Below, piece after piece: positions 1 through 62,770 of a stretch of DNA of 64,000 nt. How positions within the stretch are numbered: the stretch's first letter is position 1; each line of letters opens with the position of its first letter. Under the pieces are notes generated by a model. That model did no database searches, was not told the origin of the DNA, and saw nothing but the letters and a program-made list of their open reading frames with translations. Position numbers and translations under genes: made by a program. Origin of the DNA: Loxodes magnus (Eukaryota > Ciliophora > Karyorelictea > Loxodida > Loxodidae); contig CAMPDV010000006.1 of NCBI GenBank assembly GCA_946699065.1, positions 1,976,811 through 2,040,810 of the forward strand, given 5' to 3'.

Positions 1-1
1 C

Positions 2-3000
2 TGTAAGACCATGAGCGGTCGCACACATTATGTATATGCTGTGGCTATATCCAGTGATTCAGAGTTCATCGTATCGGGAAGTGAAGATTATACGGTGAGA
101 CTATGGAACGTCAAGACAGGTACCTGTAAGACCATGAGTGGCCACACTAGTTATGTATATGCTGTGGCTATATCCAGTGATTCAGAGTTCATCGTATCGG
201 GAAGTAATGATTATACGGTGAGACTATGGGACGTCAAGACAGGTACCTGTAAGACCATGAGGTGTCACACAGGTTATGTATATGCTGTGGCTATATCCAG
301 TGATTCAGAGTTCATCGTATCGGGAAGTAATGATTATACGGTGAGACTATGGGACGTCAAGACAGGTACCTGTAAGACCATGAGTGGTCACACACATTAT
401 GTATATGCTTTGGCTATATCCAGTGATTCAGAGTTCATCGTATCGGGAAGTGCAGATTAGACGGTGAGACTATGGGACGTCAAGACAGGTACCTGTAAGA
501 CCATGAGCGGTCGCACACATTATGTATATGCTGTGGCTATATCCAGTGATTCAGAGTTCATCGTATCGGGAAGTGAAGATTATACGGTGAGACTATGGAA
601 CGTCAAGACAGGTACCTGTAAGACCATGAGTGGCCACACTAGTTATGTATATGCTGTGGCTATATCCAGTGATTCAGAGTTCATCGTATCGGGAAGTAAT
701 GATTAGACGGTGAGACTATGGAACGTCAAGACAGGTACCTGTAAGACCATGAGTGGTCACACAAATTAGGTATATGCTGTGGCTATATCCAGTGATTCAG
801 AGTTCATCGTATCGGGAAGTGCAGATTATACGGTGAGACTATGGGACGTCAAGACAGGTACCTGTAAGACCATGAGGTGTCACGCACATTATGTATATGC
901 TGTGGCTATATCCAGTGATTCAGAGTTCATCGTATCGGGAAGTGCAGATACTACGGTGAGACTATGGGACGTCAAGACAGGTACCTGTAAGACCATGAGC
1001 GGTCACACACATTATGTATATGCTGTGGCTATATCCAGTGATTCAGAGTTCATCGTATCGGGAAGTCATGATAAGACAGTGAGACTATGGGACGTCAAGA
1101 CAGGTACCTGTAAGACCATGAGGTGTCACGCACATTATGTATATGCTGTGGCTATATCCAGTGATTCAGAGTTCATCGTATCGGGAAGTGCAGATTAGAC
1201 GGTGAGACTATGGAACGTCAAGACAGGTACCTGTAAGACCATGAGTGGTCACACAAATTAGGTATATGCTGTGGCTATATCCAGTGATTCAGAGTTCATC
1301 GTATCGGGAAGTGAAGATTATACGGTGAGACTATGGAACGTCAAGACAGGTACCTGTAAGACCATGAGGTGTCACACAGGTTATGTATATGCTGTGGCTA
1401 TATCCAGTGATTCAGAGTTCATCGTATCGGGAAGTAATGATTATACGGTGAGACTATGGGACGTCAAGACAGGTACCTGTAAGACCATGAGTGGTCACAC
1501 ACATTATGTATATGCTTTGGCTATATCCAGTGATTCAGAGTTCATCGTATCGGGAAGTGCAGATTAGACGGTGAGACTATGGGACGTCAAGACAGGTACC
1601 TGTAAGACCATGAGCGGTCGCACACATTATGTATATGCTGTGGCTATATCCAGTGATTCAGAGTTCATCGTATCGGGAAGTGAAGATTATACGGTGAGAC
1701 TATGGAACGTCAAGACAGGTACCTGTAAGACCATGAGTGGCCACACTAGTTATGTATATGCTGTGGCTATATCCAGTGATTCAGAGTTCATCGTATCGGG
1801 AAGTAATGATTAGACGGTGAGACTATGGAACGTCAAGACAGGTACCTGTAAGACCATGAGTGGTCACACAAATTAGGTATATGCTGTGGCTATATCCAGT
1901 GATTCAGAGTTCATCGTATCGGGAAGTGCAGATTATACGGTGAGACTATGGGACGTCAAGACAGGTACCTGTAAGACCATGAGGTGTCACGCACATTATG
2001 TATATGCTGTGGCTATATCCAGTGATTCAGAGTTCATCGTATCGGGAAGTGCAGATACTACGGTGAGACTATGGGACGTCAAGACAGGTACCTGTAAGAC
2101 CATGAGGTGTCACACAGGTTATGTATATGCTGTGGCTATATCCAGTGATTCAGAGTTCATCGTATCGGGAAGTCATGATAATACGGTGAGACTATGGAAC
2201 GTCAAGACAGGTACCTGTAAGACCATGAGGTGTCACGCACATTATGTATATGCTGTGGCTATATCCAGTGATTCAGAGTTCATCGTATCGGGAAGTGCAG
2301 ATTAGACGGTGAGACTATGGAACGTCAAGACAGGTACCTGTAAGACCATGAGGTGTCACACTAGTTATGTATGATCTGTGGCTATATCCAGTGATTCAGA
2401 GTTCATCGTATCGGGAAGTGAAGATTATACGGTGAGACTATGGAACGTCAAGACAGGTACCTGTAAGACCATGAGTGGTCACACAAATTAGGTATGATCT
2501 GTGGCTATATCCAGTGATTCAGAGTTCATCGTATCGGGAAGTGCAGATTATACGGTGAGACTATGGGACGTCAAGACAGGTACCTGTAAGACCATGAGTG
2601 GTCACACACATTATGTATATGCTGTGGCTATATCCAGTGATTCAGAGTTCATCGTATCGGGAAGTAATGATTATACGGTGAGACTATGGAACGTCAAGAC
2701 AGGTACCTGTAAGACCATGAGGTGTCACACTAGTTATGTATGATCTGTGGCTATATCCAGTGATTCAGAGTTCATCGTATCGGGAAGTGCAGATTCTACG
2801 GTGAGACTATGGGACGTCAAGACAGGTACCTGTAAGACCATGAGTGGTCACACTAGTTGTATATATGATGTGGCTATATCCAGTGATTCAGAGTTCATCG
2901 TATCGGGAAGTGCAGATTCTACGGTGAGACTATGGGACGTCAAGACAGGTACCTGTAAGACCATGAGGTGTCACACAGGTTATGTATATGATGTGGCTAT

Positions 3001-6000
3001 ATCCAGTGATTCAGAGTTCATCGTATCGGGAAGTCATGATTATACGGTGAGACTATGGGACGTCAAGACAGGTACCTGTAAGACCATGAGGTGTCACACA
3101 GGTTATGTATATGATGTGGCTATATCCAGTGATTCAGAGTTCATCGTATCGGGAAGTAATGATTAGACGGTGAGACTATGGAACGTCAAGACAGGTACCT
3201 GTAAGACCATGAGTGGTCACACAAATTAGGTATGATCTGTGGCTATATCCAGTGATTCAGAGTTCATCGTATCGGGAAGTGCAGATTAGACGGTGAGACT
3301 ATGGGACGTCAAGACAGGTACCTGTAAGACCATGAGGTGTCACACAGGTTATGTATATGATGTGGCTATATCCAGTGATTCAGAGTTCATCGTATCGGGA
3401 AGTGCAGATTATACGGTGAGACTATGGGACGTCAAGACAGGTACCTGTAAGACCATGAGGTGTCACACAGGTTATGTATATGCTGTGGCTATATCCAGTG
3501 ATTCAGAGTTCATCGTATCGGGAAGTGCAGATACTACGGTGAGACTATGGGACGTCAAGACAGGTACCTGTAAGACCATGAGCGGTCGCACACATTATGT
3601 ATATGCTGTGGCTATATCCAGTGATTCAGAGTTCATCGTATCGGGAAGTGAAGATTATACGGTGAGACTATGGAACGTCAAGACAGGTACCTGTAAGACC
3701 ATGAGTGGCCACACTAGTTATGTATATGCTGTGGCTATATCCAGTGATTCAGAGTTCATCGTATCGGGAAGTAATGATTAGACGGTGAGACTATGGAACG
3801 TCAAGACAGGTACCTGTAAGACCATGAGTGGTCACACAAATTAGGTATATGCTGTGGCTATATCCAGTGATTCAGAGTTCATCGTATCGGGAAGTGCAGA
3901 TTATACGGTGAGACTATGGGACGTCAAGACAGGTACCTGTAAGACCATGAGGTGTCACACAGGTTATGTATATGATGTGGCTATATCCAGTGATTCAGAG
4001 TTCATCGTATCGGGAAGTGCAGATACTACGGTGAGACTATGGAACGTCAAGACAGGTACCTGTAAGACCATGAGGTGTCACACACATTATGTATATGATG
4101 TGGCTATATCCAGTGATTCAGAGTTCATCGTATCGGGAAGTGCAGATTAGACGGTGAGACTATGGGACGTCAAGACAGGTACCTGTAAGACCATGAGTGG
4201 TCACACAAATTAGGTATGATCTGTGGCTATATCCAGTGATTCAGAGTTCATCGTATCGGGAAGTGCAGATTATACGGTGAGACTATGGGACGTCAAGACA
4301 GGTACCTGTAAGACCATGAGTGGTCACACACATTATGTATATGCTGTGGCTATATCCAGTGATTCAGAGTTCATCGTATCGGGAAGTAATGATTAGACGG
4401 TGAGACTATGGAACGTCAAGACAGGTACCTGTAAGACCATGAGTGGTCACACAAATTAGGTATGATCTGTGGCTATATCCAGTGATTCAGAGTTCATCGT
4501 ATCGGGAAGTGCAGATACTACGGTGAGACTATGGAACGTCAAGACAGGTACCTGTAAGACCATGAGGTGTCACACACATTATGTATATGCTGTGGCTATA
4601 TCCAGTGATTCAGAGTTCATCGTATCGGGAAGTGCAGATTAGACGGTGAGACTATGGGACGTCAAGACAGGTACCTGTAAGACCATGAGGTGTCACACAG
4701 GTTATGTATATGATGTGGCTATATCCAGTGATTCAGAGTTCATCGTATCGGGAAGTGCAGATTATACGGTGAGACTATGGGACGTCAAGACAGGTACCTG
4801 TAAGACCATGAGTGGTCACACTAGTTATGTATGATCTGTGGCTATATCCAGTGATTCAGAGTTCATCGTATCGGGAAGTGCAGATACTACGGTGAGACTA
4901 TGGAACGTCAAGACAGGTACCTGTAAGACCATGAGGTGTCACACACATTATGTATATGATGTGGCTATATCCAGTGATTCAGAGTTCATCGTATCGGGAA
5001 GTAATGATTATACGGTGAGACTATGGGACGTCAAGACAGGTACCTGTAAGACCATGAGTGGCCACACTAGTTATGTATATGCTGTGGCTATATCCAGTGA
5101 TTCAGAGTTCATCGTATCGGGAAGTGCAGATTAGACGGTGAGACTATGGGACGTCAAGACAGGTACCTGTAAGACCATGAGTGGCCACACTAGTTATGTA
5201 TATGCTGTGGCTATATCCAGTGATTCAGAGTTCATCGTATCGGGAAGTAATGATTATACGGTGAGACTATGGAACGTCAAGACAGGTACCTGTAAGACCA
5301 TGAGTGGTCACACACATTATGTATATGCTGTGGCTATATCCAGTGATTCAGAGTTCATCGTATCGGGAAGTAATGATTATACGGTGAGACTATGGAACGT
5401 CAAGACAGGTACCTGTAAGACCATGAGGTGTCACACACATTATGTATATGCTGTGGCTATATCCAGTGATTCAGAGTTCATCGTATCGGGAAGTAATGAT
5501 TAGACGGTGAGACTATGGGACGTCAAGACAGGTACCTGTAAGACCATGAGTGGTCACACACATTATGTATATGCTGTGGCTATATCCAGTGATTCAGAGT
5601 TCATCGTATCGGGAAGTGCAGATTAGACGGTGAGACTATGGGACGTCAAGACAGGTACCTGTAAGACCATGAGGTGTCACACAGGTTATGTATATGATGT
5701 GGCTATATCCAGTGATTCAGAGTTCATCGTATCGGGAAGTGCAGATTATACGGTGAGACTATGGGACGTCAAGACAGGTACCTGTAAGACCATGAGTGGT
5801 CACACTAGTTATGTATGATCTGTGGCTATATCCAGTGATTCAGAGTTCATCGTATCGGGAAGTGCAGATACTACGGTGAGACTATGGAACGTCAAGACAG
5901 GTACCTGTAAGACCATGAGGTGTCACACACATTATGTATATGATGTGGCTATATCCAGTGATTCAGAGTTCATCGTATCGGGAAGTAATGATTATACGGT

Positions 6001-9000
6001 GAGACTATGGGACGTCAAGACAGGTACCTGTAAGACCATGAGTGGCCACACTAGTTATGTATATGCTGTGGCTATATCCAGTGATTCAGAGTTCATCGTA
6101 TCGGGAAGTGCAGATTAGACGGTGAGACTATGGGACGTCAAGACAGGTACCTGTAAGACCATGAGTGGCCACACTAGTTATGTATATGCTGTGGCTATAT
6201 CCAGTGATTCAGAGTTCATCGTATCGGGAAGTAATGATTATACGGTGAGACTATGGAACGTCAAGACAGGTACCTGTAAGACCATGAGTGGTCACACACA
6301 TTATGTATATGATGTGGCTATATCCAGTGATTCAGAGTTCATCGTATCGGGAAGTGCAGATACTACGGTGAGACTATGGGACGTCAAGACAGGTACCTGT
6401 AAGACCATGAGGTGTCACACAGGTTATGTATATGCTGTGGCTATATCCAGTGATTCAGAGTTCATCGTATCGGGAAGTAATGATTAGACGGTGAGACTAT
6501 GGGACGTCAAGACAGGTACCTGTAAGACCATGAGTGGTCACACACATTATGTATATGCTGTGGCTATATCCAGTGATTCAGAGTTCATCGTATCGGGAAG
6601 TAATGATTAGACGGTGAGACTATGGGACGTCAAGACAGGTACCTGTAAGATCATGAGTGGTCACACTAGTTGTGTATCATCTGTGGCTTTATCCAGTGAT
6701 TCAGAGTTCATCGTATCGGGAAGTAATGATTATACGGTGAGACTATGGGACGTCAAGACAGGTACCTGTAAGACCATGAGGTGTCACACTAGTTATGTAT
6801 CATCTGTGGCTTTATCCAGTGATTCAGAGTTCATCGTATCGGGAAGTGCAGATTAGACGGTGAGACTATGGGACGTCAAGACAGGTACCTGTAAGACCAT
6901 GAGGTGTCACACACATTATGTATATGATGTGGCTATATCCAGTGATTCAGAGTTCATCGTATCGGGAAGTAATGATTATACGGTGAGACTATGGAACGTC
7001 AAGACAGGTACCTGTAAGACCATGAGTGGTCACACACATTATGTATATGCTGTGGCTATATCCAGTGATTCAGAGTTCATCGTATCGGGAAGTAATGATT
7101 AGACGGTGAGACTATGGGACGTCAAGACAGGTACCTGTAAGACCATGAGGTGTCACACACATTATGTATATGCTGTGGCTATATCCAGTGATTCAGAGTT
7201 CATCGTATCGGGAAGTAATGATTAGACGGTGAGACTATGCGACGTCAAGACAGGTACCTGTAAGACCATGAGTGGTCACACAGGTTATGTATATGCTGTG
7301 GCTATATCCAGTAATTCAGAGTTCATCGTATCGGGAAGTAATGATTATACGGTGAGACTATGGAACGTCAAGACAGGTACCTGTAAGACCATGAGTGGTC
7401 ACACACATTATGTATATGCTGTGGCTATATCCAGTGATTCAGAGTTCATCGTATCGGGAAGTAATGATTATACGGTGAGACTATGGAACGTCAAGACAGG
7501 TACCTGTAAGACCATGAGGTGTCACACACATTATGTATATGCTGTGGCTATATCCAGTGATTCAGAGTTCATCGTATCGGGAAGTGCAGATTATACGGTG
7601 AGACTATGGGACGTCAAGACAGGTACCTGTAAGACCATGAGTGGTCACACACATTATGTATATGCTGTGGCTATATCCAGTGATTCAGAGTTCATCGTAT
7701 CGGGAAGTGCAGATTATACGGTGAGACTATGGGACGTCAAGACAGGTACCTGTAAGACCATGAGGTGTCACACAGGTTATGTATATGATAAAGCTATATC
7801 CAGTGATTCAGAGTTCATCGTATCGGGAAGTAATGATTATACGGTGAGACTATGGGACGTCAAGACAGGTACCTGTAAGACCATGAGTGGTCACACTAGT
7901 TATGTATCTGCTGTGGCTATATCCAGTGATTCAGAGTTCATCGTATCGGGAAGTAATGATTAGACGGTGAGACTATGGGACGTCAAGACAGGTACCTGTA
8001 AGACCATGAGGTGTCACACAGGTTATGTATATGCTTTGGCTATATCCAGTGATTCAGAGTTCATCGTATCGGGAAGTGCAGATACTACGGTGAGACTATG
8101 GAACGTCAAGACAGGTACCTGTAAGACCATGAGTGGCCACACTAGTTATGTATATGCTTTGGCTATATCCAGTGATTCAGAGTTCATCGTATCGGGAAGT
8201 GCAGATACTACGGTGAGACTATGGAACGTCAAGACAGGTACCTGTAAGACCATGAGTGGCCACACTAGTTATGTATATGCTGTGGCTTTATCCAGTGATT
8301 CAGAGTTCATCGTATCGGGAAGTGCAGATTATACGGTGAGACTATGGGACGTCAAGACAGGTACCTGTAAGACCATGAGTGGTCACACTGATTATGTATA
8401 TGCTGTGGCTATATCCAGTGATTCAGAGTTCATCGTATCGGGAAGTGCAGATTATACGGTGAGATTATGGAACGTCAAGACAGGTACCTGTAAGACCATG
8501 AGTGGCCACACTAGTTATGTATGATCTGTGGCTATATCCAGTGATTCAGAGTTCATCGTATCGGGAAGTGCAGATTATACGGTGAGACTATGCGACGTCA
8601 AGACAGGTACCTGTAAGACCATGAGTGGTCACACAGGTTATGTATATGCTGTGGCTATATCCAGTAATTCAGAGTTCATCGTATCGGGAAGTAATGATTA
8701 TACGGTGAGACTATGGAACGTCAAGACAGGTACCTGTAAGACCATGAGTGGTCACACACATTATGTATATGCTGTGGCTATATCCAGTGATTCAGAGTTC
8801 ATCGTATCGGGAAGTAATGATTATACGGTGAGACTATGGAACGTCAAGACAGGTACCTGTAAGACCATGAGGTGTCACACACATTATGTATATGCTGTGG
8901 CTATATCCAGTGATTCAGAGTTCATCGTATCGGGAAGTAATGATTATACGGTGAGACTATGGAACGTCAAGACAGGTACCTGTAAGACCATGAGTGGTCA

Positions 9001-51000: not shown

Positions 51001-54000
51001 AAGTAATGATTATACGGTGAGACTATGGGATGTCAAGACAGGTACCTGTAAGACCATGAGTGGTCACACTAGTTATGTATCTGCTGTGGCTATATCCAGT
51101 GATTCAGAGTTCATCGTATCGGGAAGTGCAGATTATACGGTGAGACTATGGAACGTCAAGACAGGTACCTGTAAGACCATGAGTGGTCACACTAGTTATG
51201 TATGATCTGTGGCTATATCCAGTGATTCAGAGTTCATCGTATCGGGAAGTGCAGATTATACGGTGAGACTATGGGACGTCAAGACAGGTACCTGTAAGAC
51301 CATGAGTGGTCACACACATTATGTATATGCTGTGGCTATATCCAGTGATTCAGAGTTCATCGTATCGGGAAGTGCAGATTAGACGGTGAGACTATGGGAC
51401 GTCAAGACAGGTACCTGTAAGACCATGAGCGGTCACACACATTATGTATATGCTGTGGCTATATCCAGTGATTCAGAGTTCATCGTATCGGGAAGTAATG
51501 ATTATACGGTGAGACTATGGGACGTCAAGACAGGTACCTGTAAGACCATGAGGTGTCACACAGGTTGTGTATATGCTGTGGCTATATCCAGTGATTCAGA
51601 GTTCATCGTATCGGGAAGTGCAGATTATACGGTGAGACTATGGAACGTCAAGACAGGTACCTGTAAGACCATGAGTGGTCACACACATTATGTATATGCT
51701 GTGGCTATATCCAGTGATTCAGAGTTCATCGTATCGGGAAGTAATGATTAGACGGTGAGACTATGGGACGTCAAGACAGGTACCTGTAAGACCATGAGTG
51801 GTCACACACATTATGTATATGCTGTGGCTATATCCAGTGATTCAGAGTTCATCGTATCGGGAAGTGCAGATTATACGGTGAGACTATGGGACGTCAAGAC
51901 AGGTACCTGTAAGACCATGAGGTGTCACACAGGTTATGTATATGCTGTGGCTATATCCAGTGATTCAGAGTTCATCGTATCGGGAAGTGCAGATTATACG
52001 GTGAGACTATGGAACGTCAAGACAGGTACCTGTAAGACCATGAGTGGCCACACACATTATGTATATGCTGTGGCTATATCCAGTGATTCAGAGTTCATCG
52101 TATCGGGAAGTGCAGATTATACGGTGAGACTATGGGACGTCAAGACAGGTACCTGTAAGACCATGAGGTGTCACACAGGTTATGTATATGATGTGGCTAT
52201 ATCCAGTGATTCAGAGTTCATCGTATCGGGAAGTAATGATTATACGGTGAGACTATGGGACGTCAAGACAGGTACCTGTAAGACCATGAGGTGTCACACA
52301 CATTATGTATATGCTGTGGCTATATCCAGTGATTCAGAGTTCATCGTATCGGGAAGTGCAGATTATACGGTGAGACTATGGGACGTCAAGACAGGTACCT
52401 GTAAGACCATGAGGTGTCACACAGGTTATGTATATGATGTGGCTATATCCAGTGATTCAGAGTTCATCGTATCGGGAAGTGCAGATTATACGGTGAGACT
52501 ATGGAACGTCAAGACAGGTACCTGTAAGACCATGAGTGGTCACACTAGTTATGTATGATCTGTGGCTATATCCAGTGATTCAGAGTTCATCGTATCGGGA
52601 AGTAATGATTATACGGTGAGACTATGGGATGTCAAGACAGGTACCTGTAAGACCATGAGTGGTCACACTAGTTATGTATCTGCTGTGGCTATATCCAGTG
52701 ATTCAGAGTTCATCGTATCGGGAAGTGCAGATTATACGGTGAGACTATGGAACGTCAAGACAGGTACCTGTAAGACCATGAGTGGTCACACTAGTTATGT
52801 ATGATCTGTGGCTATATCCAGTGATTCAGAGTTCATCGTATCGGGAAGTGCAGATTATACGGTGAGACTATGGGACGTCAAGACAGGTACCTGTAAGACC
52901 ATGAGTGGTCACACACATTATGTATATGCTGTGGCTATATCCAGTGATTCAGAGTTCATCGTATCGGGAAGTGCAGATTAGACGGTGAGACTATGGGACG
53001 TCAAGACAGGTACCTGTAAGACCATGAGCGGTCACACACATTATGTATATGCTGTGGCTATATCCAGTGATTCAGAGTTCATCGTATCGGGAAGTAATGA
53101 TTATACGGTGAGACTATGGGACGTCAAGACAGGTACCTGTAAGACCATGAGGTGTCACACAGGTTGTGTATATGCTGTGGCTATATCCAGTGATTCAGAG
53201 TTCATCGTATCGGGAAGTGCAGATTATACGGTGAGACTATGGAACGTCAAGACAGGTACCTGTAAGACCATGAGTGGTCACACACATTATGTATATGCTG
53301 TGGCTATATCCAGTGATTCAGAGTTCATCGTATCGGGAAGTAATGATTAGACGGTGAGACTATGGGACGTCAAGACAGGTACCTGTAAGACCATGAGTGG
53401 TCACACACATTATGTATATGCTGTGGCTATATCCAGTGATTCAGAGTTCATCGTATCGGGAAGTAATGATTATACGGTGAGACTATGGGACGTCAAGACA
53501 GGTACCTGTAAGACCATGAGTGGTCACACAAATTAGGTATGATCTGTGGCTATATCCAGTGATTCAGAGTTCATCGTATCGGGAAGTGCAGATTATACGG
53601 TGAGACTATGGGACGTCAAGACAGGTACCTGTAAGACCATGAGGTGTCACACAGGTTATGTATATGATGTGGCTATATCCAGTGATTCAGAGTTCATCGT
53701 ATCGGGAAGTAATGATTATACGGTGAGACTATGGGACGTCAAGACAGGTACCTGTAAGACCATGAGTGGTCACACTAGTTATGTATATGCTGTGGCTATA
53801 TCCAGTGATTCAGAGTTCATCGTATCGGGAAGTTCAGATACTACGGTGAGACTATGGAACGTCAAGACAGGTACCTGTAAGACCATGAGTGGCCACACTA
53901 GTTATGTATGATCTGTGGCTATATCCAGTGATTCAGAGTTCATCGTATCGGGAAGTGCAGATTATACGGTGAGACTATGGGACGTCAAGACAGGTACCTG

Positions 54001-57000
54001 TAAGACCATGAGGTGTCACACAGGTTATGTATATGCTGTGGCTATATCCAGTGATTCAGAGTTCATCGTATCGGGAAGTGCAGATTATACGGTGAGACTA
54101 TGGAACGTCAAGACAGGTACCTGTAAGACCATGAGTGGTCACACAGGTTATGTATATGCTGTGGCTATATCCAGTGATTCAGAGTTCATCGTATCGGGAA
54201 GTGCAGATTAGACGGTGAGACTATGGGACGTCAAGACAGGTACCTGTAAGACCATGAGGTGTCACACACATTATGTATATGCTGTGGCTATATCCAGTGA
54301 TTCAGAGTTCATCGTATCGGGAAGTGCAGATTATACGGTGAGACTTTGGGACGTCAAGACAGGTACCTGTAAGACCATGAGTGGTCACACACATTATGTA
54401 TATGCTGTGGCTATATCCAGTGATTCAGAGTTCATCGTATCGGGAAGTGCAGATACTACGGTGAGACTATGGAACGTCAAGACAGGTACCTGTAAGACCA
54501 TGAGGTGTCACACACATTATGTATATGCTGTGGCTATATCCAGTGATTCAGAGTTCATCGTATCGGGAAGTGCAGATTAGACGGTGAGACTATGGGACGT
54601 CAAGACAGGTACCTGTAAGACCATGAGTGGTCACACACATTATGTATATGCTGTGGCTATATCCAGTGATTCAGAGTTCATCGTATCGGGAAGTAATGAT
54701 TAGACGGTGAGACTATGGGACGTCAAGACAGGTACCTGTAAGACCATGAGTGGCCACACTAGTTATGTATGATCTGTGGCTATATCCAGTGATTCAGAGT
54801 TCATCGTATCGGGAAGTGCAGATTATACGGTGAGACTATGGGACGTCAAGACAGGTACCTGTAAGACCATGAGTGGTCACACACATTATGTATATGCTGT
54901 GGCTATATCCAGTGATTCAGAGTTCATCGTATCGGGAAGTAATGATTATACGGTGAGACTATGGGACGTCAAGACAGGTACCTGTAAGACCATGAGTGGT
55001 CACACACATTATGTATATGCTGTGGCTATATCCAGTGATTCAGAGTTCATCGTATCGGGAAGTGCAGATTATACGGTGAGACTATGGGACGTCAAGACAG
55101 GTACCTGTAAGACCATGAGGTGTCACACAGGTTATGTATATGATGTGGCTATATCCAGTGATTCAGAGTTCATCGTATCGGGAAGTAATGATTATACGGT
55201 GAGACTATGGGACGTCAAGACAGGTACCTGTAAGACCATGAGTGGTCACACTAGTTATGTATATGCTGTGGCTATATCCAGTGATTCAGAGTTCATCGTA
55301 TCGGGAAGTTCAGATACTACGGTGAGACTATGGAACGTCAAGACAGGTACCTGTAAGACCATGAGTGGCCACACTAGTTATGTATGATCTGTGGCTATAT
55401 CCAGTGATTCAGAGTTCATCGTATCGGGAAGTGCAGATTATACGGTGAGACTATGGGACGTCAAGACAGGTACCTGTAAGACCATGAGTGGTCACACACA
55501 TTATGTATATGCTGTGGCTATATCCAGTGATTCAGAGTTCATCGTATCGGGAAGTAATGATTATACGGTGAGACTATGGAACGTCAAGACAGGTACCTGT
55601 AAGACCATGAGTGGTCACACACATTATGTATATGCTGTGGCTATATCCAGTGATTCAGAGTTCATCGTATCGGGAAGTAATGATTATACGGTGAGACTAT
55701 GGGACGTCAAGACAGGTACCTGTAAGACCATGAGTGGTCACACACATTATGTATATGCTGTGGCTATATCCAGTGATTCAGAGTTCATCGTATCGGGAAG
55801 TAATGATTATACGGTGAGACTATGGGACGTCAAGACAGGTACCTGTAAGACCATGAGTGGTCACACACATTATGTATATGCTGTGGCTATATCCAGTGAT
55901 TCAGAGTTCATCGTATCGGGAAGTGCAGATTAGACGGTGAGACTATGGGACGTCAAGACAGGTACCTGTAAGACCATGAGTGGCCACACTAGTTATGTAT
56001 ATGCTGTGGCTATATCCAGTGATTCAGAGTTCATCGTATCGGGAAGTGCAGATTATACGGTGAGACTATGGAACGTCAAGACAGGTACCTGTAAGACCAT
56101 GAGTGGCCACACTAGTTATGTATGATCTGTGGCTATATCCAGTGATTCAGAGTTCATCGTATCGGGAAGTGCAGATTATACGGTGAGACTATGGGACGTC
56201 AAGACAGGTACCTGTAAGACCATGAGTGGTCACACACATTATGTATATGCTGTGGCTATATCCAGTGATTCAGAGTTCATCGTATCGGGAAGTAATGATT
56301 ATACGGTGAGACTATGGGACGTCAAGACAGGTACCTGTAAGACCATGAGTGGCCACACTAGTTATGTATATGCTGTGGCTATATCCAGTGATTCAGAGTT
56401 CATCGTATCGGGAAGTAATGATTATACGGTGAGACTATGGGACGTCAAGACAGGTACCTGTAAGACCATGAGTGGCCACACTAGTTATGTATATGCTGTG
56501 GCTATATCCAGTGATTCAGAGTTCATCGTATCGGGAAGTGCAGATTATACGGTGAGACTATGGGACGTCAAGACAGGTACCTGTAAGACCATGAGTGGTC
56601 ACACACATTATGTATATGCTGTGGCTATATCCAGTGATTCAGAGTTCATCGTATCGGGAAGTGCAGATTATACGGTGAGACTATGGGACGTCAAGACAGG
56701 TACCTGTAAGACCATGAGTGGTCACACACATTATGTATATGCTGTGGCTATATCCAGTGATTCAGAGTTCATCGTATCGGGAAGTGCAGATTATAAGGTG
56801 AGACTATGGGACGTCAAGACAGGTACCTGTAAGACCATGAGTGGTCACACACATTATGTATATGCTGTGGCTATATCCAGTGATTCAGAGTTCATCGTAT
56901 CGGGAAGTGCAGATTATACGGTGAGACTATGGGACGTCAAGACAGGTACCTGTAAGACCATGAGTGGTCACACTAGTTATGTATCTGCTGTGGCTATATC

Positions 57001-60000
57001 CAGTGATTCAGAGTTCATCGTATCGGGAAGTGCAGATTATACGGTGAGACTATGGAACGTCAAGACAGGTACCTGTAAGACCATGAGTGGCCACACTAGT
57101 TATGTATGATCTGTGGCTATATCCAGTGATTCAGAGTTCATCGTATCGGGAAGTTCAGATTATACGGTGAGACTATGGAACGTCAAGACAGGTACCTGTA
57201 AGACCATGAGTGGCCACACTAGTTATGTATGATCTGTGGCTATATCCAGTGATTCAGAGTTCATCGTATCGGGAAGTGCAGATTATACGGTGAGACTATG
57301 GGACGTCAAGACAGGTACCTGTAAGACCATGAGGTGTCACACAGGTTATGTATATGATGTGGCTATATCCAGTGATTCAGAGTTCATCGTATCGGGAAGT
57401 AATGATTATACGGTGAGACTATGGGACGTCAAGACAGGTACCTGTAAGACCATGAGTGGTCACACTAGTTATGTATATGCTGTGGCTATATCCAGTGATT
57501 CAGAGTTCATCGTATCGGGAAGTGCAGATTAGACGGTGAGACTATGGGACGTCAAGACAGGTACCTGTAAGACCATGAGTGGCCACACTAGTTATGTATG
57601 ATCTGTGGCTATATCCAGTGATTCAGAGTTCATCGTATCGGGAAGTGCAGATTATACGGTGAGACTATGGAACGTCAAGACAGGTACCTGTAAGACCATG
57701 AGTGGCCACACTAGTTATGTATGATCTGTGGCTATATCCAGTGATTCAGAGTTCATCGTATCGGGAAGTAATGATTATACGGTGAGACTATGGGACGTCA
57801 AGACAGGTACCTGTAAGACCATGAGTGGCCACACTAGTTATGTATATGCTGTGGCTATATCCAGTGATTCAGAGTTCATCGTATCGGGAAGTGCAGATTA
57901 TACGGTGAGACTATGGGACGTCAAGACAGGTACCTGTAAGACCATGAGTGGTCACACTAGTTATGTATGATCTGTGGCTATATCCAGTGATTCAGAGTTC
58001 ATCGTATCGGGAAGTAATGATTATACGGTGAGACTATGGAACGTCAAGACAGGTACCTGTAAGACCATGAGTGGTCACACAGGTTATGTATCTGCTGTGG
58101 CTATATCCAGTGATTCAGAGTTCATCGTATCGGGAAGTAATGATTAGACGGTGAGACTATGGGACGTCAAGACAGGTACCTGTAAGACCATGAGTGGTCA
58201 CACACATTATGTATATGCTGTGGCTATATCCAGTGATTCAGAGTTCATCGTATCGGGAAGTAATGATTATACGGTGAGACTATGGGACGTCAAGACAGGT
58301 ACCTGTAAGACCATGAGTGGTCACACACATTATGTATATGCTGTGGCTATATCCAGTGATTCAGAGTTCATCGTATCGGGAAGTGCAGATTAGACGGTGA
58401 GACTATGGGACGTCAAGACAGGTACCTGTAAGACCATGAGTGGCCACACTAGTTATGTATATGCTGTGGCTATATCCAGTGATTCAGAGTTCATCGTATC
58501 GGGAAGTGCAGATTATACGGTGAGACTATGGAACGTCAAGACAGGTACCTGTAAGACCATGAGTGGCCACACTAGTTATGTATGATCTGTGGCTATATCC
58601 AGTGATTCAGAGTTCATCGTATCGGGAAGTGCAGATTATACGGTGAGACTATGGGACGTCAAGACAGGTACCTGTAAGACCATGAGTGGTCACACACATT
58701 ATGTATATGCTGTGGCTATATCCAGTGATTCAGAGTTCATCGTATCGGGAAGTAATGATTATACGGTGAGACTATGGGACGTCAAGACAGGTACCTGTAA
58801 GACCATGAGTGGCCACACTAGTTATGTATATGCTGTGGCTATATCCAGTGATTCAGAGTTCATCGTATCGGGAAGTGCAGATTATACGGTGAGACTATGG
58901 AACGTCAAGACAGGTACCTGTAAGACCATGAGTGGCCACACTAGTTATGTATGATCTGTGGCTATATCCAGTGATTCAGAGTTCATCGTATCGGGAAGTG
59001 CAGATTATACGGTGAGACTATGGGACGTCAAGACAGGTACCTGTAAGACCATGAGTGGTCACACACATTATGTATATGCTGTGGCTATATCCAGTGATTC
59101 AGAGTTCATCGTATCGGGAAGTGCAGATTAGACGGTGAGACTATGGAACGTCAAGACAGGTACCTGTAAGACCATGAGGTGTCACACAGGTTATGTATAT
59201 GCTTTGGCTATATCCAGTGATTCAGAGTTCATCGTATCGGGAAGTGCAGATACTACGGTGAGACTATGGAACGTCAAGACAGGTACCTGTAAGACCATGA
59301 GTGGTCACACACATTATGTATATGCTGTGGCTATATCCAGTGATTCAGAGTTCATCGTATCGGGAAGTGCAGATTATACGGTGAGACTATGGGACGTCAA
59401 GACAGGTACCTGTAAGACCATGAGTGGTCACACACATTATGTATATGCTGTGGCTATATCCAGTGATTCAGAGTTCATCGTATCGGGAAGTGCAGATTAT
59501 ACGGTGAGACTATGGGACGTCAAGACAGGTACCTGTAAGACCATGAGGTGTCACACAGGTTATGTATATGATGTGGCTATATCCAGTGATTCAGAGTTCA
59601 TCGTATCGGGAAGTAATGATTATACGGTGAGACTATGGGACGTCAAGACAGGTACCTGTAAGACCATGAGTGGTCACACTAGTTATGTATCTGCTGTGGC
59701 TATATCCAGTGATTCAGAGTTCATCGTATCGGGAAGTGCAGATTATACGGTGAGACTATGGAACGTCAAGACAGGTACCTGTAAGACCATGAGTGGCCAC
59801 ACTAGTTATGTATGATCTGTGGCTATATCCAGTGATTCAGAGTTCATCGTATCGGGAAGTAATGATTATACGGTGAGACTATGGAACGTCAAGACAGGTA
59901 CCTGTAAGACCATGAGTGGCCACACTAGTTATGTATGATCTGTGGCTATATCCAGTGATTCAGAGTTCATCGTATCGGGAAGTGCAGATTATACGGTGAG

Positions 60001-62113
60001 ACTATGGAACGTCAAGACAGGTACCTGTAAGACCATGAGTGGCCACACTAGTTATGTATGATCTGTGGCTATATCCAGTGATTCAGAGTTCATCGTATCG
60101 GGAAGTGCAGATTATACGGTGAAACTATGGGACGTCAAGACAGGTACCTGTAAGACCATGAGTGGTCACACACATTATGTATATGCTGTGGCTATATCCA
60201 GTGATTCAGAGTTCATCGTATCGGGAAGTGCAGATTATACGGTGAGACTATGGGACGTCAAGACAGGTACCTGTAAGACCATGAGGTGTCACACAGGTTA
60301 TGTATATGATGTGGCTATATCCAGTGATTCAGAGTTCATCGTATCGGGAAGTAATGATTATACGGTGAGACTATGGGACGTCAAGACAGGTACCTGTAAG
60401 ACCATGAGTGGTCACACTAGTTATGTATCTGCTGTGGCTATATCCAGTGATTCAGAGTTCATCGTATCGGGAAGTGCAGATTATACGGTGAGACTATGGA
60501 ACGTCAAGACAGGTACCTGTAAGACCATGAGTGGCCACACTAGTTATGTATGATCTGTGGCTATATCCAGTGATTCAGAGTTCATCGTATCGGGAAGTGC
60601 AGATTATACGGTGAGACTATGGGACGTCAAGACAGGTACCTGTAAGACCATGAGTGGTCACACACATTATGTATATGCTGTGGCTATATCCAGTGATTCA
60701 GAGTTCATCGTATCGGGAAGTAATGATTATACGGTGAGACTATGGGACGTCAAGACAGGTACCTGTAAGACCATGAGTGGCCACACTAGTTATGTATATG
60801 CTGTGGCTATATCCAGTGATTCAGAGTTCATCGTATCGGGAAGTGCAGATTATACGGTGAGACTATGGGACGTCAAGACAGGTACCTGTAAGACCATGAG
60901 TGGCCACACTAGTTATGTATGATCTGTGGCTATATCCAGTGATTCAGAGTTCATCGTATCGGGAAGTGCAGATTATACGGTGAGACTATGGAACGTCAAG
61001 ACAGGTACCTGTAAGACCATGAGTGGCCACACTAGTTATGTATGATCTGTGGCTATATCCAGTGATTCAGAGTTCATCGTATCGGGAAGTGCAGATTATA
61101 CGGTGAGACTATGGGACGTCAAGACAGGTACCTGTAAGACCATGAGTGGTCACACACATTATGTATATGCTGTGGCTATATCCAGTGATTCAGAGTTCAT
61201 CGTATCGGGAAGTAATGATTATACGGTGAGACTATGGGACGTCAAGACAGGTACCTGTAAGACCATGAGTGGCCACACTAGTTATGTATATGCTGTGGCT
61301 ATATCCAGTGATTCAGAGTTCATCGTATCGGGAAGTGCAGATTAGACGGTGAGACTATGGGACGTCAAGACAGGTACCTGTAAGACCATGAGCGGTCACA
61401 CACATTATGTATATGCTGTGGCTATATCCAGTGATTCAGAGTTCATCGTATCGGGAAGTGCAGATTATACGGTGAGACTATGGAACGTCAAGACAGGTAC
61501 CTGTAAGACCATGAGTGGCCACACTAGTTATGTATGATCTGTGGCTATATCCAGTGATTCAGAGTTCATCGTATCGGGAAGTGCAGATTATACGGTGAGA
61601 CTATGGAACGTCAAGACAGGTACCTGTAAGACCATGAGTGGTCACACACATTATGTATATGCTGTGGCTATATCCAGTGATTCAGAGTTCATCGTATCGG
61701 GAAGTGCAGATTAGACGGTGAGACTATGGAACGTCAAGACAGGTACCTGTAAGACCATGAGTGGCCACACTAGTTATGTATGATCTGTGGCTATATCCAG
61801 TGATTCAGAGTTCATCGTATCGGGAAGTGCAGATTATACGGTGAGACTATGGAACGTCAAGACAGGTACCTGTAAGACCATGAGTGGTCACACACATTAT
61901 GTATATGCTGTGGCTATATCCAGTGATTCAGAGTTCATCGTATCGGGAAGTAATGATTAGACGGTGAGACTATGGGACGTCAAGACAGGTACCTGTAAGA
62001 CCATGAGTGGCCACACTAGTTATGTATGATCTGTGGCTAAATCCAGTGATTCAGAGTTCATCGTATCGGGAAGTGCAGATTATACGGTGAGACTATGGGA
62101 CGTCAAGACAGGT
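2..62113 (+). CDS. Giant WD40-repeat protein, internal fragment; continuous only if UAG and UGA are sense codons
   Basis: Codons start at nt 2 and stay in one frame for 62.1 kb, about 505 WD40 repeats of 41 residues, partial at both ends. Repeat landmarks: GH at residues 3-4, SSDSEF at 14-19, VSGS at 21-24, tight-turn Asp at 26, Trp at 32, Asp or Asn at 33. The Asp, His, Ser and Trp of the structural tetrad that stabilises WD40 blades are all present in the main repeat class. Such repeats fold into beta-propellers, usually seven blades each, that act as binding scaffolds. Under the standard code more than 120 TAG or TGA codons interrupt the frame, all at repeat residues 7, 9 or 27. No in-frame TAA and no frameshift was seen. 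Reading TGA as Trp and TAG as Gln or Glu gives canonical WD40 sequence. The alternative is a pseudogenic or satellite array. No start codon, signal peptide or partner domain is visible. Confidence 0.5.
257..999 (+). repeat. Six-unit block, first copy (offset 1,107 bp)
   Basis: The unit order here is [20 protein letters not shown] ending in [13 protein letters not shown] with [12 protein letters not shown] ending in [21 protein letters not shown]. The same order recurs 1,107 bp (nine units) downstream. The units with SGRT (repeat His4 to Arg) and CHA (Thr5 to Ala) are almost confined to the first 4 kb of the window. Loss of the GH histidine in the SGRT units removes one member of the structural tetrad. 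Confidence 0.85.
1364..2106 (+). repeat. Six-unit block, second copy (offset 1,107 bp)
   Basis: This repeats the order of 257-999, including the in-frame TAG codons ending at 1,567 and 1,813 and the N-TAG at 1,874-1,876. A shorter third copy of the SGRT, SGHTSYV-TAG and N-TAG units lies at about 3,578-3,946, offset 1,968 bp (16 units) from this copy. Stops are copied together with their units. Confidence 0.85.
2486..2500 (+). other. Double-stop repeat: N-TAG-V-TGA-S
   Basis: In-frame codons are AAT (2,486-2,488), TAG (2,489-2,491), GTA, TGA (2,495-2,497) and TCT. Units with the same pair are at TAG 3,227, 4,211, 4,457, 9,869 and 53,534, each with TGA six bases later. Four further units carry the N-TAG without TGA (767, 1,259, 1,874, 3,842). 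Read with UAG as Gln and UGA as Trp the segment is H-T-N-Q-V-W-S-V-A, the commonest style of WD40 strand-a sequence. Under the standard code two nonsense codons three codons apart recur six times. Confidence 0.9.
4570..5320 (+). repeat. Local duplication, eight-unit offset (984 bp), first copy
   Basis: This run includes SGHTSYV-TGA with [13 protein letters not shown], and [10 protein letters not shown] ending in TAG at 5,132-5,134, and it recurs 984 bp downstream. The open segments 4,646-4,834 and 4,838-5,134 match 5,630-5,818 and 5,822-6,118 residue for residue. Boundaries are approximate because the units themselves are so similar. Confidence 0.8.
5554..6304 (+). repeat. Local duplication, eight-unit offset (984 bp), second copy
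   Basis: Second copy of 4,570-5,320. It diverges near 6,310, where the downstream unit switches from YAV to YDV. Part of this copy and what follows (about 5,980-7,585) also matches about 11,761-13,366 at an offset of 5,781 bp (47 units). Confidence 0.8.
5980..7585 (+). repeat. Left copy of a 1.6-kb block shared at a 47-unit offset
   Basis: Matches about 11,761-13,366, offset 5,781 bp. Shared landmarks are the rare [15 protein letters not shown] unit (near 6,650 and 12,431), the [12 protein letters not shown] unit ending in TAG at 6,854-6,856 and 12,635-12,637, and the SSN variant (Asp16 to Asn, near 7,313 and 13,094). The copies differ at a few bases, for example the TAG or TAT state near 6,608 and the Trp32 to Cys codon at 7,238-7,240, where the other copy has TGG. 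Confidence 0.8.
7962..8590 (+). repeat. Five-unit block, first copy (17-unit offset)
   Basis: Encodes [42 protein letters not shown] and SGHTSYV-TGA, and recurs 2,091 bp downstream at about 10,053-10,681. A rare synonymous TTA leucine codon (gagattatgg near 8,462) is preserved in the copies near 10,553 and 11,537, so these are copies by descent. Confidence 0.85.
10343..11326 (+). repeat. Eight-unit higher-order repeat, copy 1 of 2
   Basis: Eight units in the order [52 protein letters not shown] ending in [33 protein letters not shown]. The next 984 bp repeat the same order exactly. The YDK unit is unusual: residues 11 and 12 read Lys-Ala instead of Val-Ala, placing a lysine at a normally hydrophobic strand-a position. 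Confidence 0.9.
11327..12310 (+). repeat. Eight-unit higher-order repeat, copy 2 of 2
   Basis: Direct tandem copy of 10,343-11,326, including the TTA leucine codon, the TGA ending at 11,599 and the TAG ending at 11,899. The order changes at the next unit ([10 protein letters not shown] with ND), which marks the right edge. Confidence 0.9.
11761..13366 (+). repeat. Right copy of the 47-unit-offset block
   Basis: Counterpart of 5,980-7,585. The [15 protein letters not shown] and [12 protein letters not shown] pair appears a third time at about 16,208-16,450, 31 units further on. This gives three positions at which the same rare substitutions were copied together. Confidence 0.8.
12680..13117 (+). 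repeat. Four-unit block, first copy (seven-unit offset)
   Basis: [13 protein letters not shown] ending in [13 protein letters not shown] ending in TAG, then a unit with the synonymous GAT Asp33 codon and the SSN change. The order recurs 861 bp downstream at about 13,541-13,978. Confidence 0.75.
14843..15165 (+). repeat. Block with HDK, TVTC, SNVSS and SNVFT units, first copy (16-unit offset)
   Basis: Contains catgataagacagtg (HDKT), the TVTC change (repeat Gly37 to Val, which also destroys the palindrome of that unit), SNVSSVAL with YD, and SNVFTV. The same series is at about 16,811-17,133, offset 1,968 bp. A glycine-to-glutamate change (SES in place of SGS, near 15,208) follows in this copy only. 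Confidence 0.85.
15224..15475 (+). repeat. Short block, first copy (five-unit offset, 615 bp)
   Basis: Starts after a TAG with a synonymous GAT Asp33 codon, then [10 protein letters not shown] and SGHTSYV-TGA. The same segment is at 15,839-16,090. Both copies have TGA at the same relative place (15,410-15,412 and 16,025-16,027). Confidence 0.75.
16811..17133 (+). repeat. Block with HDK, TVTC, SNVSS and SNVFT units, second copy
   Basis: Counterpart of 14,843-15,165. It is preceded by a unit with His at residue 9 (SYVHDV, near 16,760), which I noticed nowhere else in the window. The residue-13 Leu (VAL) form is concentrated in this neighbourhood. Confidence 0.85.
18122..26362 (+). repeat. 67-unit (8,241-bp) segmental duplication, copy 1
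   Basis: The order of units and stops from about 18,122 onward is repeated 8,241 bp downstream; the 367-codon open segment at 18,914-20,017 matches 27,155-28,258 and the 221-codon segment at 20,336-21,001 matches 28,577-29,242. After about 21,560 the offset becomes 8,610 bp because the second copy has three more units. Shared rare markers include gtgacacta at 23,957 and 32,567 (Arg30 to Thr), the TGC codon for residue 32 at 23,844 and 32,454, and ctttgg synonymous changes. Matching continues about 170 bp past the end of the unit, as expected for a tandem duplication. Confidence 0.9.
25064..26782 (+). other. Long stop-free stretch (572 codons, about 14 WD40 repeats)
   Basis: The second longest run without TAG or TGA under the standard code; its duplicate at 33,674-35,146 is interrupted earlier by one TAG. 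It is bounded upstream by a residue-27 TAG and downstream by another, so it has no independent start signal: the first in-frame start-like codon is the GTG inside T-V-R-L-W. It is a segment of the giant frame and not a separate gene. Confidence 0.6.
26363..35145 (+). repeat. 70-unit segmental duplication, copy 2 (three extra units)
   Basis: Second copy of 18,122-26,535. The open run that starts at 21,320 has seven units, whereas its counterpart at 29,561-30,718 has ten, including one [10 protein letters not shown] unit. Elsewhere the copies are near-identical; the right edge is a TAT to TAG difference (26,534 region versus 35,144-35,146). Unequal crossover in register, followed by a local three-unit gain or loss, accounts for the layout. 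Confidence 0.9.
36380..37404 (+). repeat. Third partial copy of the 67-unit segment
   Basis: Matches about 32,198-33,222 (offset 4,182 bp, 34 units) and therefore also about 23,588-24,612. It keeps the markers TVTC, SGHTDYV, Cys32, SNV-TGA (36,689-36,691) and gtgacacta (36,749). It ends next to the only unit I saw with MSDYTSYV (near 37,404), where Gly3-His4 becomes Asp-Tyr. Confidence 0.85.
37673..39610 (+). repeat. 1.9-kb block shared with 53.5-55.5 kb, left copy
   Basis: Matches about 53,540-55,477 at exactly 15,867 bp (129 units). The 203-codon open segments 38,909-39,520 and 54,776-55,387 are identical, as are 38,048-38,344 and 53,915-54,211. Internally the 203-codon segment is also duplicated at 37,433-38,044, offset 1,476 bp (12 units). 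The rare SSDTT unit (residue 25 Ser) marks every copy. Confidence 0.9.
41312..42910 (+). repeat. 13-unit block, left copy (44-unit offset)
   Basis: Matches about 46,724-48,322 at 5,412 bp. The 285-codon open segments 41,492-42,349 and 46,904-47,761 agree residue for residue, including the synonymous gggatgtc in both. The TGA cluster just upstream is partly shared. Confidence 0.88.
42530..43456 (+). repeat. Block recurring at 44.1 kb with one unit removed
   Basis: Starts with a TAG-following unit, then [10 protein letters not shown] ending in [13 protein letters not shown] with [12 protein letters not shown] with HD and onward to SGHTSYV-TGA. The copy at 44,129-44,932 is offset 1,599 bp and lacks one [10 protein letters not shown] unit, after which the offset becomes 1,476 bp. 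This is an in-register loss or gain of exactly 123 bp. Confidence 0.85.
44936..46777 (+). other. Longest stop-free stretch (613 codons, about 15 WD40 repeats)
   Basis: The longest run readable with the standard code, enough for about two seven-bladed propellers. It lies between two residue-9 TGA codons (44,930-44,932 and 46,775-46,777). One unit carries GCVYAM (Tyr7 to Cys and Val11 to Met, near 46,400). There is no upstream promoter or translation signal distinct from neighbouring units, so I do not call it an independent gene. Confidence 0.6.
46724..48322 (+). repeat. 13-unit block, right copy (44-unit offset)
   Basis: Right copy of 41,312-42,910. At its right end it joins the 11-unit tandem repeat that begins near 48,188, so the junction here is between two different amplification events. 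Confidence 0.88.
48188..49540 (+). repeat. 11-unit higher-order repeat, copy 1 of 2
   Basis: Eleven units (1,353 bp) whose order is repeated directly at 49,541-50,893. Copy 1 ends with ADTAG (49,535-49,537); copy 2 has TAT at the equivalent codon and reads on to a TGA at 50,957-50,959. The two copies therefore differ chiefly in the stop state of residue 27. Confidence 0.9.
49541..50893 (+). repeat. 11-unit higher-order repeat, copy 2 of 2
   Basis: Tandem copy of 48,188-49,540. Its last six units and about eight more then recur with a 13-unit (1,599-bp) offset: about 50,190-51,840 matches about 51,789-53,439. Confidence 0.9.
51789..53439 (+). repeat. 13-unit duplication, right copy
   Basis: Repeats about 50,190-51,840 at 1,599 bp, including the TGA ending at 52,558 and 52,804, the TAG at 52,979-52,981, and the [10 protein letters not shown] unit (Tyr7 to Cys, near 51,563 and 53,162). 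The copies diverge after 53,440, where residue 25-27 reads NDY and not ADY. Confidence 0.88.
53540..55477 (+). repeat. 1.9-kb block shared with 37.7-39.6 kb, right copy
   Basis: Right copy, preceded by the double-stop N-TAG-V-TGA unit at 53,534-53,542, which is absent from the left copy. The right edge is where the next unit switches from [10 protein letters not shown] to [10 protein letters not shown]. Its distance from the left copy implies a long-range transfer, or a larger duplication later overwritten in the middle. Confidence 0.9.
57107..62029 (+). repeat. TGA-rich part of the array
   Basis: In this stretch SYV-TGA-SV units are frequent and often adjacent: for example TGA at 57,107, 57,230, 57,597, 57,720, 57,968, 58,583, 58,952, 59,813, 59,936, 60,059, 60,551, 60,920, 61,043, 61,535, 61,781 and 62,027. 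Elsewhere TAG at residue 27 is the commoner interruption. Under UGA as Trp these units carry the canonical V-W-S-V strand. Also seen: Arg30 to Lys at about 60,122. A partial copy of 55,700-56,410 lies at 58,160-58,870, offset 2,460 bp (20 units). Confidence 0.8.
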
Positions 62114-62770
62114 AACCTGTAAGACCATGAGTGGTCACACACATTATGTATATGCTGTGGCTATATCCAGTGATTCAGAGTTCATCGTATCGGGAAGTAA
62201 TGATTATACGGTGAGACTATGGGACGTCAAGACAGGTACCTGTAAGACCATGAGTGGTCACACACATTATGTATATGCTGTGGCTATATCCAGTGATTCA
62301 GAGTTCATCGTATCGGGAAGTGCAGATTATACGGTGAGACTATGGGACGTCAAGACAGGTACCTGTAAGACCATGAGGTGTCACACAGGTTATGTATATG
62401 ATGTGGCTATATCCAGTGATTCAGAGTTCATCGTATCGGGAAGTAATGATTATACGGTGAGACTATGGGACGGTCAAGACAGGTACCTGTAAGACCATGA
62501 GTGGTCACACTAGTTATGTATATGCTGTGGCTATATCCAGTGATTCAGAGTTCATCGTATCGGGAAGTTCAGATACTACGGTGAGACTATGAACGTCAAG
62601 ACAGGTACCTGTAAGACCATGAGTGGCCACACTAGTTATGTATGATCTGTGGCTATATCCAGTGATTCAGAGTTCATCGTATCGGGAAGTGCAGATTATA
62701 ACGGTGAGACTATGGGACGTCAAGACAGGTACCTGTAAGACCATGAGTGGTCACACACATTATGTATATT
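62040..62770 (+). other. Cluster of five single-base indels and one substitution; probable consensus errors
   Basis: Compared with neighbouring units: an extra A in ggtaacc (62,114-62,115), an extra G in gacggtc (62,472-62,473), a missing G in ctatgaacg (near 62,591), an extra A in ttataacgg (62,700-62,701) and an extra T in tatattgc (62,769-62,770). In addition T to A at 62,040 changes repeat Ile13 to Lys. All indels are homopolymer length changes. They sum to +3 and restore the frame. The first insertion creates the only effective TAA terminator I noticed (62,490-62,492). The matching copy at 54,783-55,513 has none of these changes. Unpolished long-read consensus is the simplest explanation; local decay after duplication is possible. 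Confidence 0.85.

Follow-up and report, generated by a model that had tools for sequence, protein, structure and literature searches.

A stretch of the Loxodes magnus assembly (705,730,643 bases in 7,843 contigs) reads as one WD40 repeat after another with TAG and TGA codons standing in frame, which raises the question of whether these codons are sense codons of a working gene, nonsense mutations in an array of pseudogenes, or part of something that is no longer a gene. The DNA analysed here, called the window, is the whole stretch of 64,000 nucleotides and forms the final 64 kb of contig C6 (2,040,810 bases). A sequence-only reading of the window had taken the array as coding, with UAG as Gln and UGA as Trp.

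A tandem array of 123-bp WD40 units

TRF reported a single array over positions 1-64000 of the window, with a period of 123, 520 copies, and 94% matches, and 505 units of 123 bp (41 codons) are in register from base 2. Three units scored 115 bits against the WD40 profile PF00400 and single units scored 45.4 and 47.2 bits (cut-off 27), while the conserved residues D29 and W35 are present in 505 and 499 of the 505 window units, respectively. The best PDB match was 2ymu (E 7.2e-158), a repetitive propeller presumably from Nostoc, which shares with the array 41-residue near-identical blades and Trp at R1, the column of the codon-12 TGA, in several blades, and which has Lys at the codon-30 column. 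It differs from the array in being one 577-residue chain and no satellite.

The array on C6 runs from about C6:1908314 to the contig end at 2040810, or 132.5 kb. Contig C242 (427,843 bases) carries the same sequence as C6 at a constant offset of 2,030,423, and four match pairs in the overlap agree in both place and score; because the offset is constant in the matched pairs, C242 is most likely the continuation of C6. Satellite-unit matches on C242 reach position 248,735 and, if the two contigs join and the array runs on unbroken (6 kb of C242 were read), the whole array would probably measure about 370 kb. At sampled points, the register of C242 is identical before, within, and after the stretch equivalent to the cluster of 1-bp indels near the end of C6 (Table 1), and since the register is unchanged there and the cluster lies at a contig end, these indels are probably assembly errors. 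The unbroken frame around the window is about 63 kb. Within the window, one run of 38 units and one of 27 have identical copies, at lags of 70 and 67 units, the 38-unit repeat being a recent block duplication, and two segments, with 49 and 28 haplotypes, occur in 135 combinations among the 505 units.

Table 1 Features of the window (positions counted from its first base)
Feature	Position	Strand	Basis
Part of the 123-bp WD40-unit satellite array	1..64000	+	TRF; contig position; C242 overlap
Frame uninterrupted under table 27, about 505 WD40 units	2..62113	+	Unit-by-unit reading
Example of TAG at codon 30 (D+1), read as Gln; 104/505 units	458..460	+	Unit 371-493 scored
Example of TAG at codon 10 (R1-2), read as Gln; 10/505 units	767..769	+	Unit counts
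Example of TGA at codon 12 (R1), read as Trp; 71/505 units	2372..2374	+	Unit 2339-2461 scored
38 consecutive units, identical copy 70 units on at 30383-35056	21773..26446	+	Unit comparison
1-bp indel cluster near contig end	61993..62857	+	Register unchanged at equivalent place on C242

Stop codons are confined to three variable codons

The 505 in-register window units contain 185 in-frame stops, and these occupy only 3 of the 41 codons. TAG is found at codon 10 in 10 units, every one after AAT, and at codon 30 in 104 units, after GAT, while TGA is found at codon 12 in 71 units and is followed by TCT in 70 of them and by TTT in one. No stop is present in 331 units, one in 165, two in seven, and three in two. 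These codons are the residues 7, 9, and 27 at which the sequence-only reading had placed the stops, and its remark that the array holds no other Gln codon was borne out over all 505 units, in which in-frame TAA, CAA, and CAG are absent. In the consensus unit, 17 single-base changes in 12 codons would create a stop, and the window has stops only at three variable codons, a restriction that exceeds chance.

Outside the window, a TAA stands where codon 35 would give the structural Trp in 52 of the 359 upstream units that could be parsed (of 557, 198 dropped out of the parse), and genome-wide 650 places carry this change. Of the 100 such places listed, 69 are concentrated upstream of the window on C6:1912349-1972383, C372:111-7073 is also frequent among those listed with TGG changed to TAA, and in the C6 units seen with TAA at this position the following codon is AAC. 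The TGA form of codon 12 occurs 59,099 times genome-wide versus once for TGG. At codons 12 and 13 in the window, TGA pairs with TCT, TAT pairs with GCT or GAT, and TCA-TCT is also seen, with AGA at codon 12 found upstream of the window as well. Because the TCA-TCT and AGA forms coexist with it, TGA at codon 12 lies within a network of sense codons joined by single steps.

The residues read at these codons were examined by scoring single units against PF00400, with 10 of the 20 residues tried per stop codon. For TGA at codon 12, Trp ranked second of the ten readings over a spread of 3.5 bits (T 45.7, W 45.4, Y 45.0, R 44.5, S 44.4, C 44.2, L 43.6, Q 42.8, E 42.4, and G 42.2), and for TAG at codon 30, Gln ranked third over a spread of 5.2 bits (G 49.3, K 48.3, Q 47.2, S 47.1, A 46.0, E 45.6, W 45.3, Y 45.1, P 44.7, and L 44.1). 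The earlier argument from the WD40 pattern therefore holds in that Trp and Gln both fit well, but neither is singled out by the profile scores, which barely discriminate, and the assignment of residues from the WD40 pattern alone was rejected.

Conserved genes carry in-frame TAA and TAG

A single base separates TAG from TAT at codons 10 and 30 and TGA from TCA, itself present at codon 12, as would be expected of a standard-code pseudogene array whose TAG and TGA codons are simple nonsense mutations. This explanation was weighed against conserved genes of the same assembly, a check that the sequence-only reading had proposed. A PF00118 search returned 29 Cpn60/CCT matches, 22 of them full length and 7 partial and distant. 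All 22 full-length matches contain internal TAA and TAG, 13-25 in-frame codons each, including one on C6 itself (C6:954136, with 4 TAG and 14 TAA), while an internal TGA was found, once each, in 2 of the 22 full-length matches and in 5 of the 7 partial, distant ones. In the matched parts of 20 of the 22 full-length genes, we counted 249 TAA, 96 TAG, 112 CAA, and 36 CAG codons, along with 44 TGG versus 2 TGA. An in-frame TGA lies no more than 24 codons past the matched part in 20 of 20 genes, and we infer that this TGA is the stop. In 19 of these 20 genes, a partner at 52-92% identity exists within the same 20.

Codon meanings were compared in 14 pairs of Cpn60/CCT paralogues with at least 50% identity, counting cells from both sides. 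Of the 356 cells with TAA on one side, 214 had TAA, TAG, or Q on the other, and for TAG the figure was 84 of 134. Among the sense letters opposite TAA, Q came first (53 of 195) and E second (35), and the same order was seen opposite TAG (Q 19 of 69, E 13). The TGA cells held W twice and N once; both W cells come from the TGA of one gene, L017, facing the TGG of two paralogues, and the TGA of another, L024, faces N. Sense TGA is thus documented here by one good site (L017) plus the literature.

In the available part of a published account of Loxodes magnus (PMC11441545), the organism is described as using NCBI table 27, in which TAA and TAG are Gln and TGA is Trp or stop, with TGA read as Trp when it is far enough from the poly-A tail. 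The same account gives a macronuclear assembly of 706 Mb, of which 231 Mb are low-complexity tandem repeats, and a CDS GC content of 33.5%; the corresponding values here are 705.7 Mb for the assembly and 34.2% GC for the matched parts of the 20 Cpn60/CCT genes, and no difference from that part of the account was found. Reading UAG as Gln is supported by the in-frame TAG codons of the Cpn60/CCT genes, by the lead of Q among sense letters, and by the published table, and reading UGA as Trp by the L017 site and the same table, so the proposed code is supported, but it was already known as the karyorelict table 27. Given the in-frame TAA and TAG of the chaperonin genes, one of them on the same contig, and a published code in which these codons are sense, the standard-code pseudogene array was rejected and we regard it as extremely improbable.

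A search with a tRNA pattern of 33 places, with UUA or CUA allowed, gave 73 matches in the genome and none in the control. The 42 matches printed with their letters were all CUA and all at the limit of 3 mismatches, as matches to the pattern and not to whole genes, and because copy number is high and the matches are partly tandem, some of them may be tRNA-derived repeats. Sixteen CUA-pattern matches lie at exactly 588-bp spacing on C130:557668-566520, which therefore holds a tandem array of either tRNA genes or tRNA-derived repeats, and many of the 73 matches are clustered on C48, C106, C153, C253, and C448. A tRNA scan of regions L001-L008 found no tRNA. For the tRNA-Trp of some ciliates, an anticodon stem of 4 bp has been reported (PMC13092985).

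The unit is a genome-wide satellite

When a 26-mer taken from the unit's invariant part was searched in the whole assembly, it matched the two strands exactly 175,980 and 223,306 times (399,286 copies), and with up to 3 mismatches 219,474 and 275,213 times (494,687 copies), while reversed 26-mer controls gave 0. At 123 bp per unit, these counts correspond to 49.1 Mb, or 7.0% of the assembly, for exact matches and to 60.8 Mb, or 8.6%, with up to 3 mismatches. Among the matches listed, many contigs are represented, and arrays were read on C6, C242, and C623. The 123-bp unit is, therefore, a genome-wide satellite of roughly half a million copies.

The array is like satellite DNA generally, as far as the sources at hand describe it, in its long head-to-tail arrays, its presence on many contigs, its local variants, and its block duplications, and unlike it in that the unit is a complete protein-domain repeat whose frame is still largely legible. 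The term WD40 has no occurrence in the main text of PMC11441545 (supplements apart), and no report of a WD40-derived satellite was found in the literature searched (supplements and subscription papers apart). What is new here is that, in the somatic genome of a ciliate, a protein-domain repeat has turned into a large satellite and can still be read as WD40 under table 27. Since that table has no dedicated stop codon, such arrays resemble giant open frames, which is a warning for gene predictors.

Frame, indels, and selection along the array

The segment upstream of the window was parsed by anchors into 532 intervals (13 dropped) and the window into 503; because the anchor occupies the invariant block at about codons 20-25, the indel, N/S, and diversity analyses all undercount changes within it. 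Frame-breaking indels of 8 classes were present in 44 of the 532 upstream intervals, and a single 132-kb gene was rejected on this basis. Thirty of the 44 indel copies are one 121-bp variant, which in its exact form occurs 30 times in the genome, always on C6 upstream of the window, indicating local amplification of a unit that had lost its frame. Between 101 points sampled among the matches listed on C242, the register showed 18 net changes, never by a multiple of 3, and on C4 four of the unit spacings among those listed are 125 bp. The window had 0 indels in its 503 intervals against 56 substitution alleles, compared with 8 indel classes against 55 substitution alleles upstream (Fisher p 0.007), a contrast to be expected of a frame under constraint.

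For distinct core changes, N/S relative to opportunity was 1.04 upstream, from 27 N and 8 S (Fisher p 1.0), and 0.68 in the window, from 22 N and 10 S (Fisher p 0.28). An earlier anchored count gave 1.26 and 0.61 for these two segments, 1.15 for the C242 tail, from 15 N and 4 S, and 0.10 for C623, where it is based on 1 N and 3 S only. The core is near neutral in three of the four segments, and C623 speaks against neutrality on a few changes. On C623, 31 of 31 units are in frame, and outside six variable codons there are changes at only 4 codons. The window frame is the best fit to chaperonin codon usage among the six frames. A satellite in decay would be expected to look worse than the window and C623 do, and genome-wide W35 is TAA at just 650 places, against 59,099 with TGA at R1. 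Recent homogenisation from intact units would explain this condition as well as selection does.

This condition is what lends some appeal to the view that stretches such as part of the window or C623 are real giant WD40 genes of many blades, in which TGA is Trp far from the poly-A tail: the frame runs unbroken for about 63 kb, the 503 window intervals are free of indels, codon usage favours this frame, diversity sits at top-face codons (see below), and the C623 core is low in N/S. Set against this, no start, unique N-terminal exon, or other coding exon was recognised by eye at the left border, the only array border examined, farther upstream this array loses its frame and on C242 its register shifts, N/S in the window core is not significantly below 1, and 61 Mb of such sequence would demand very many of these genes. 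We consider giant genes decidedly unlikely, and the earlier assumption that the array is coding appears doubtful in light of the frameshifts outside the window and the near-neutral core of most segments. The repeat is probably no longer one working gene.

Variable codons and the probable founder gene

Top-face binding residues of WD40 propellers are located by the rule (V/L/I)-R1-R2-(V/L/I), as given in the available part of PMC3419727, which places R1 at codon 12 of the unit, R1-2 at codon 10, and D-1 at codon 28. The window is most diverse in amino acids at codons 9, 28, 13, 30, 6, 5, 12, and 36. In Podospora HIC repeats, the sites with high dN/dS are 10, 11, 12, 14, 30, 32, and 39, according to the part of PMC12222747 at hand, and these were mapped by spacing (12, 14, and 30 being R1-2, R1, and D-1) to codons 8, 9, 10, 12, 28, 30, and 37, with the offset picked from the spacing after the data had been seen. 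Five of the seven mapped codons vary in the array. Under this mapping, the HIC set was enriched in diversity in the window (permutation p 0.0017), upstream (0.0041), in the C242 tail (0.0016), and on C623 (0.00035), and the three top-face codons alone gave p values of 0.029, 0.055, 0.011, and 0.00008 for the same four segments.

The array and the WD40 domains of the fungal HIC NLRs (het-e/het-d of Podospora; PMC12222747, available part) have near-identical blades in common, and HIC sites 11, 12, 14, 30, and 32 correspond, by the spacing-inferred mapping, to the diverse codons 9, 10, 12, 28, and 30. The two differ in that HIC site 39 falls on codon 37, which is invariant in the window, and site 10 on codon 8, nearly invariant as protein, while codons 5, 6, 13, and 36 are variable yet outside the mapped set. 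They also differ in that the HIC WD40 is a domain of one gene and the array belongs to about half a million genome units, and in that, unlike in the HIC NLRs, no NACHT/NB-ARC or effector domain was recognised by eye in the 11.5 kb to the left of the array. Because diversity clusters at top-face codons as it does in the fungal HIC receptors, the founder was probably a hypervariable WD40 receptor-like gene.

Origin of the array

Taken together, the window is very likely karyorelict satellite DNA derived from a diversified WD40 gene, with units that can be read under table 27 and that were amplified and would for the most part not be translated. One unit would correspond to one WD40 blade under table 27, with TGA as Trp away from the mRNA end. 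The putative founder gene would have carried near-identical WD40 repeats with diversified top-face residues, and a stretch of it may have been amplified by unequal exchange together with block duplication, giving long arrays in both orientations and about half a million copies. As both TAG and TGA would have been sense codons in the founder, they could be copied along with the units just as other codons are, and most of the resulting satellite is presumably not translated. The array would then probably be the fossil of a hypervariable receptor gene and might also serve as its reservoir.

The reservoir idea can be taken further, to a satellite that stores variant WD40 blades and passes them to expressed receptor genes through gene conversion. 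Many top-face alleles are common to C6, C242, and C623, 49 and 28 segment haplotypes yield 135 combinations in 505 units, and W35 is rarely TAA genome-wide, all of which would suit such a store. No founder or recipient gene was identified in this analysis, however, and a diverse founder followed by exchange gives the same pattern, making a reservoir of this kind very unlikely in our estimate. In a wider form, 8.6% of the macronuclear assembly would be a living library of WD40 blades that expressed receptors recombine, with some long in-frame stretches perhaps translated directly; this is very unlikely, and if true the arrays would keep diversified top-face codons, sense UGA and UAG included, that supply new binding surfaces. 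A satellite derived from a diversified WD40 gene, which we prefer, offers a test case for how a diversified binding domain becomes satellite DNA or stays useful as a store of variants.

The left flank of the array

The left border of the array sits in DNA of 25% GC. When the left flank was read with seven different stop sets and its ORF lengths were compared with those of 20 shuffles, no useful answer emerged, as the longest ORF exceeded all 20 shuffles with the standard stop set (123 vs 112), with TAA alone (205 vs 175), and with TAA and TAG (174 vs 158), and with TGA as the sole stop was 482, below a shuffle value of 621. A plasmid BLAST with one unit gave no match. AT-rich tandem repeats, roughly 85-120 bp by eye, abut the start of the WD40 array at C6:1907890-1908310. 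An AT-rich element is found twice in this flank on C6 in opposite orientations (L001:2270-2623 and L001:7311 onward), and its two copies have most of a 117-residue frame in common.
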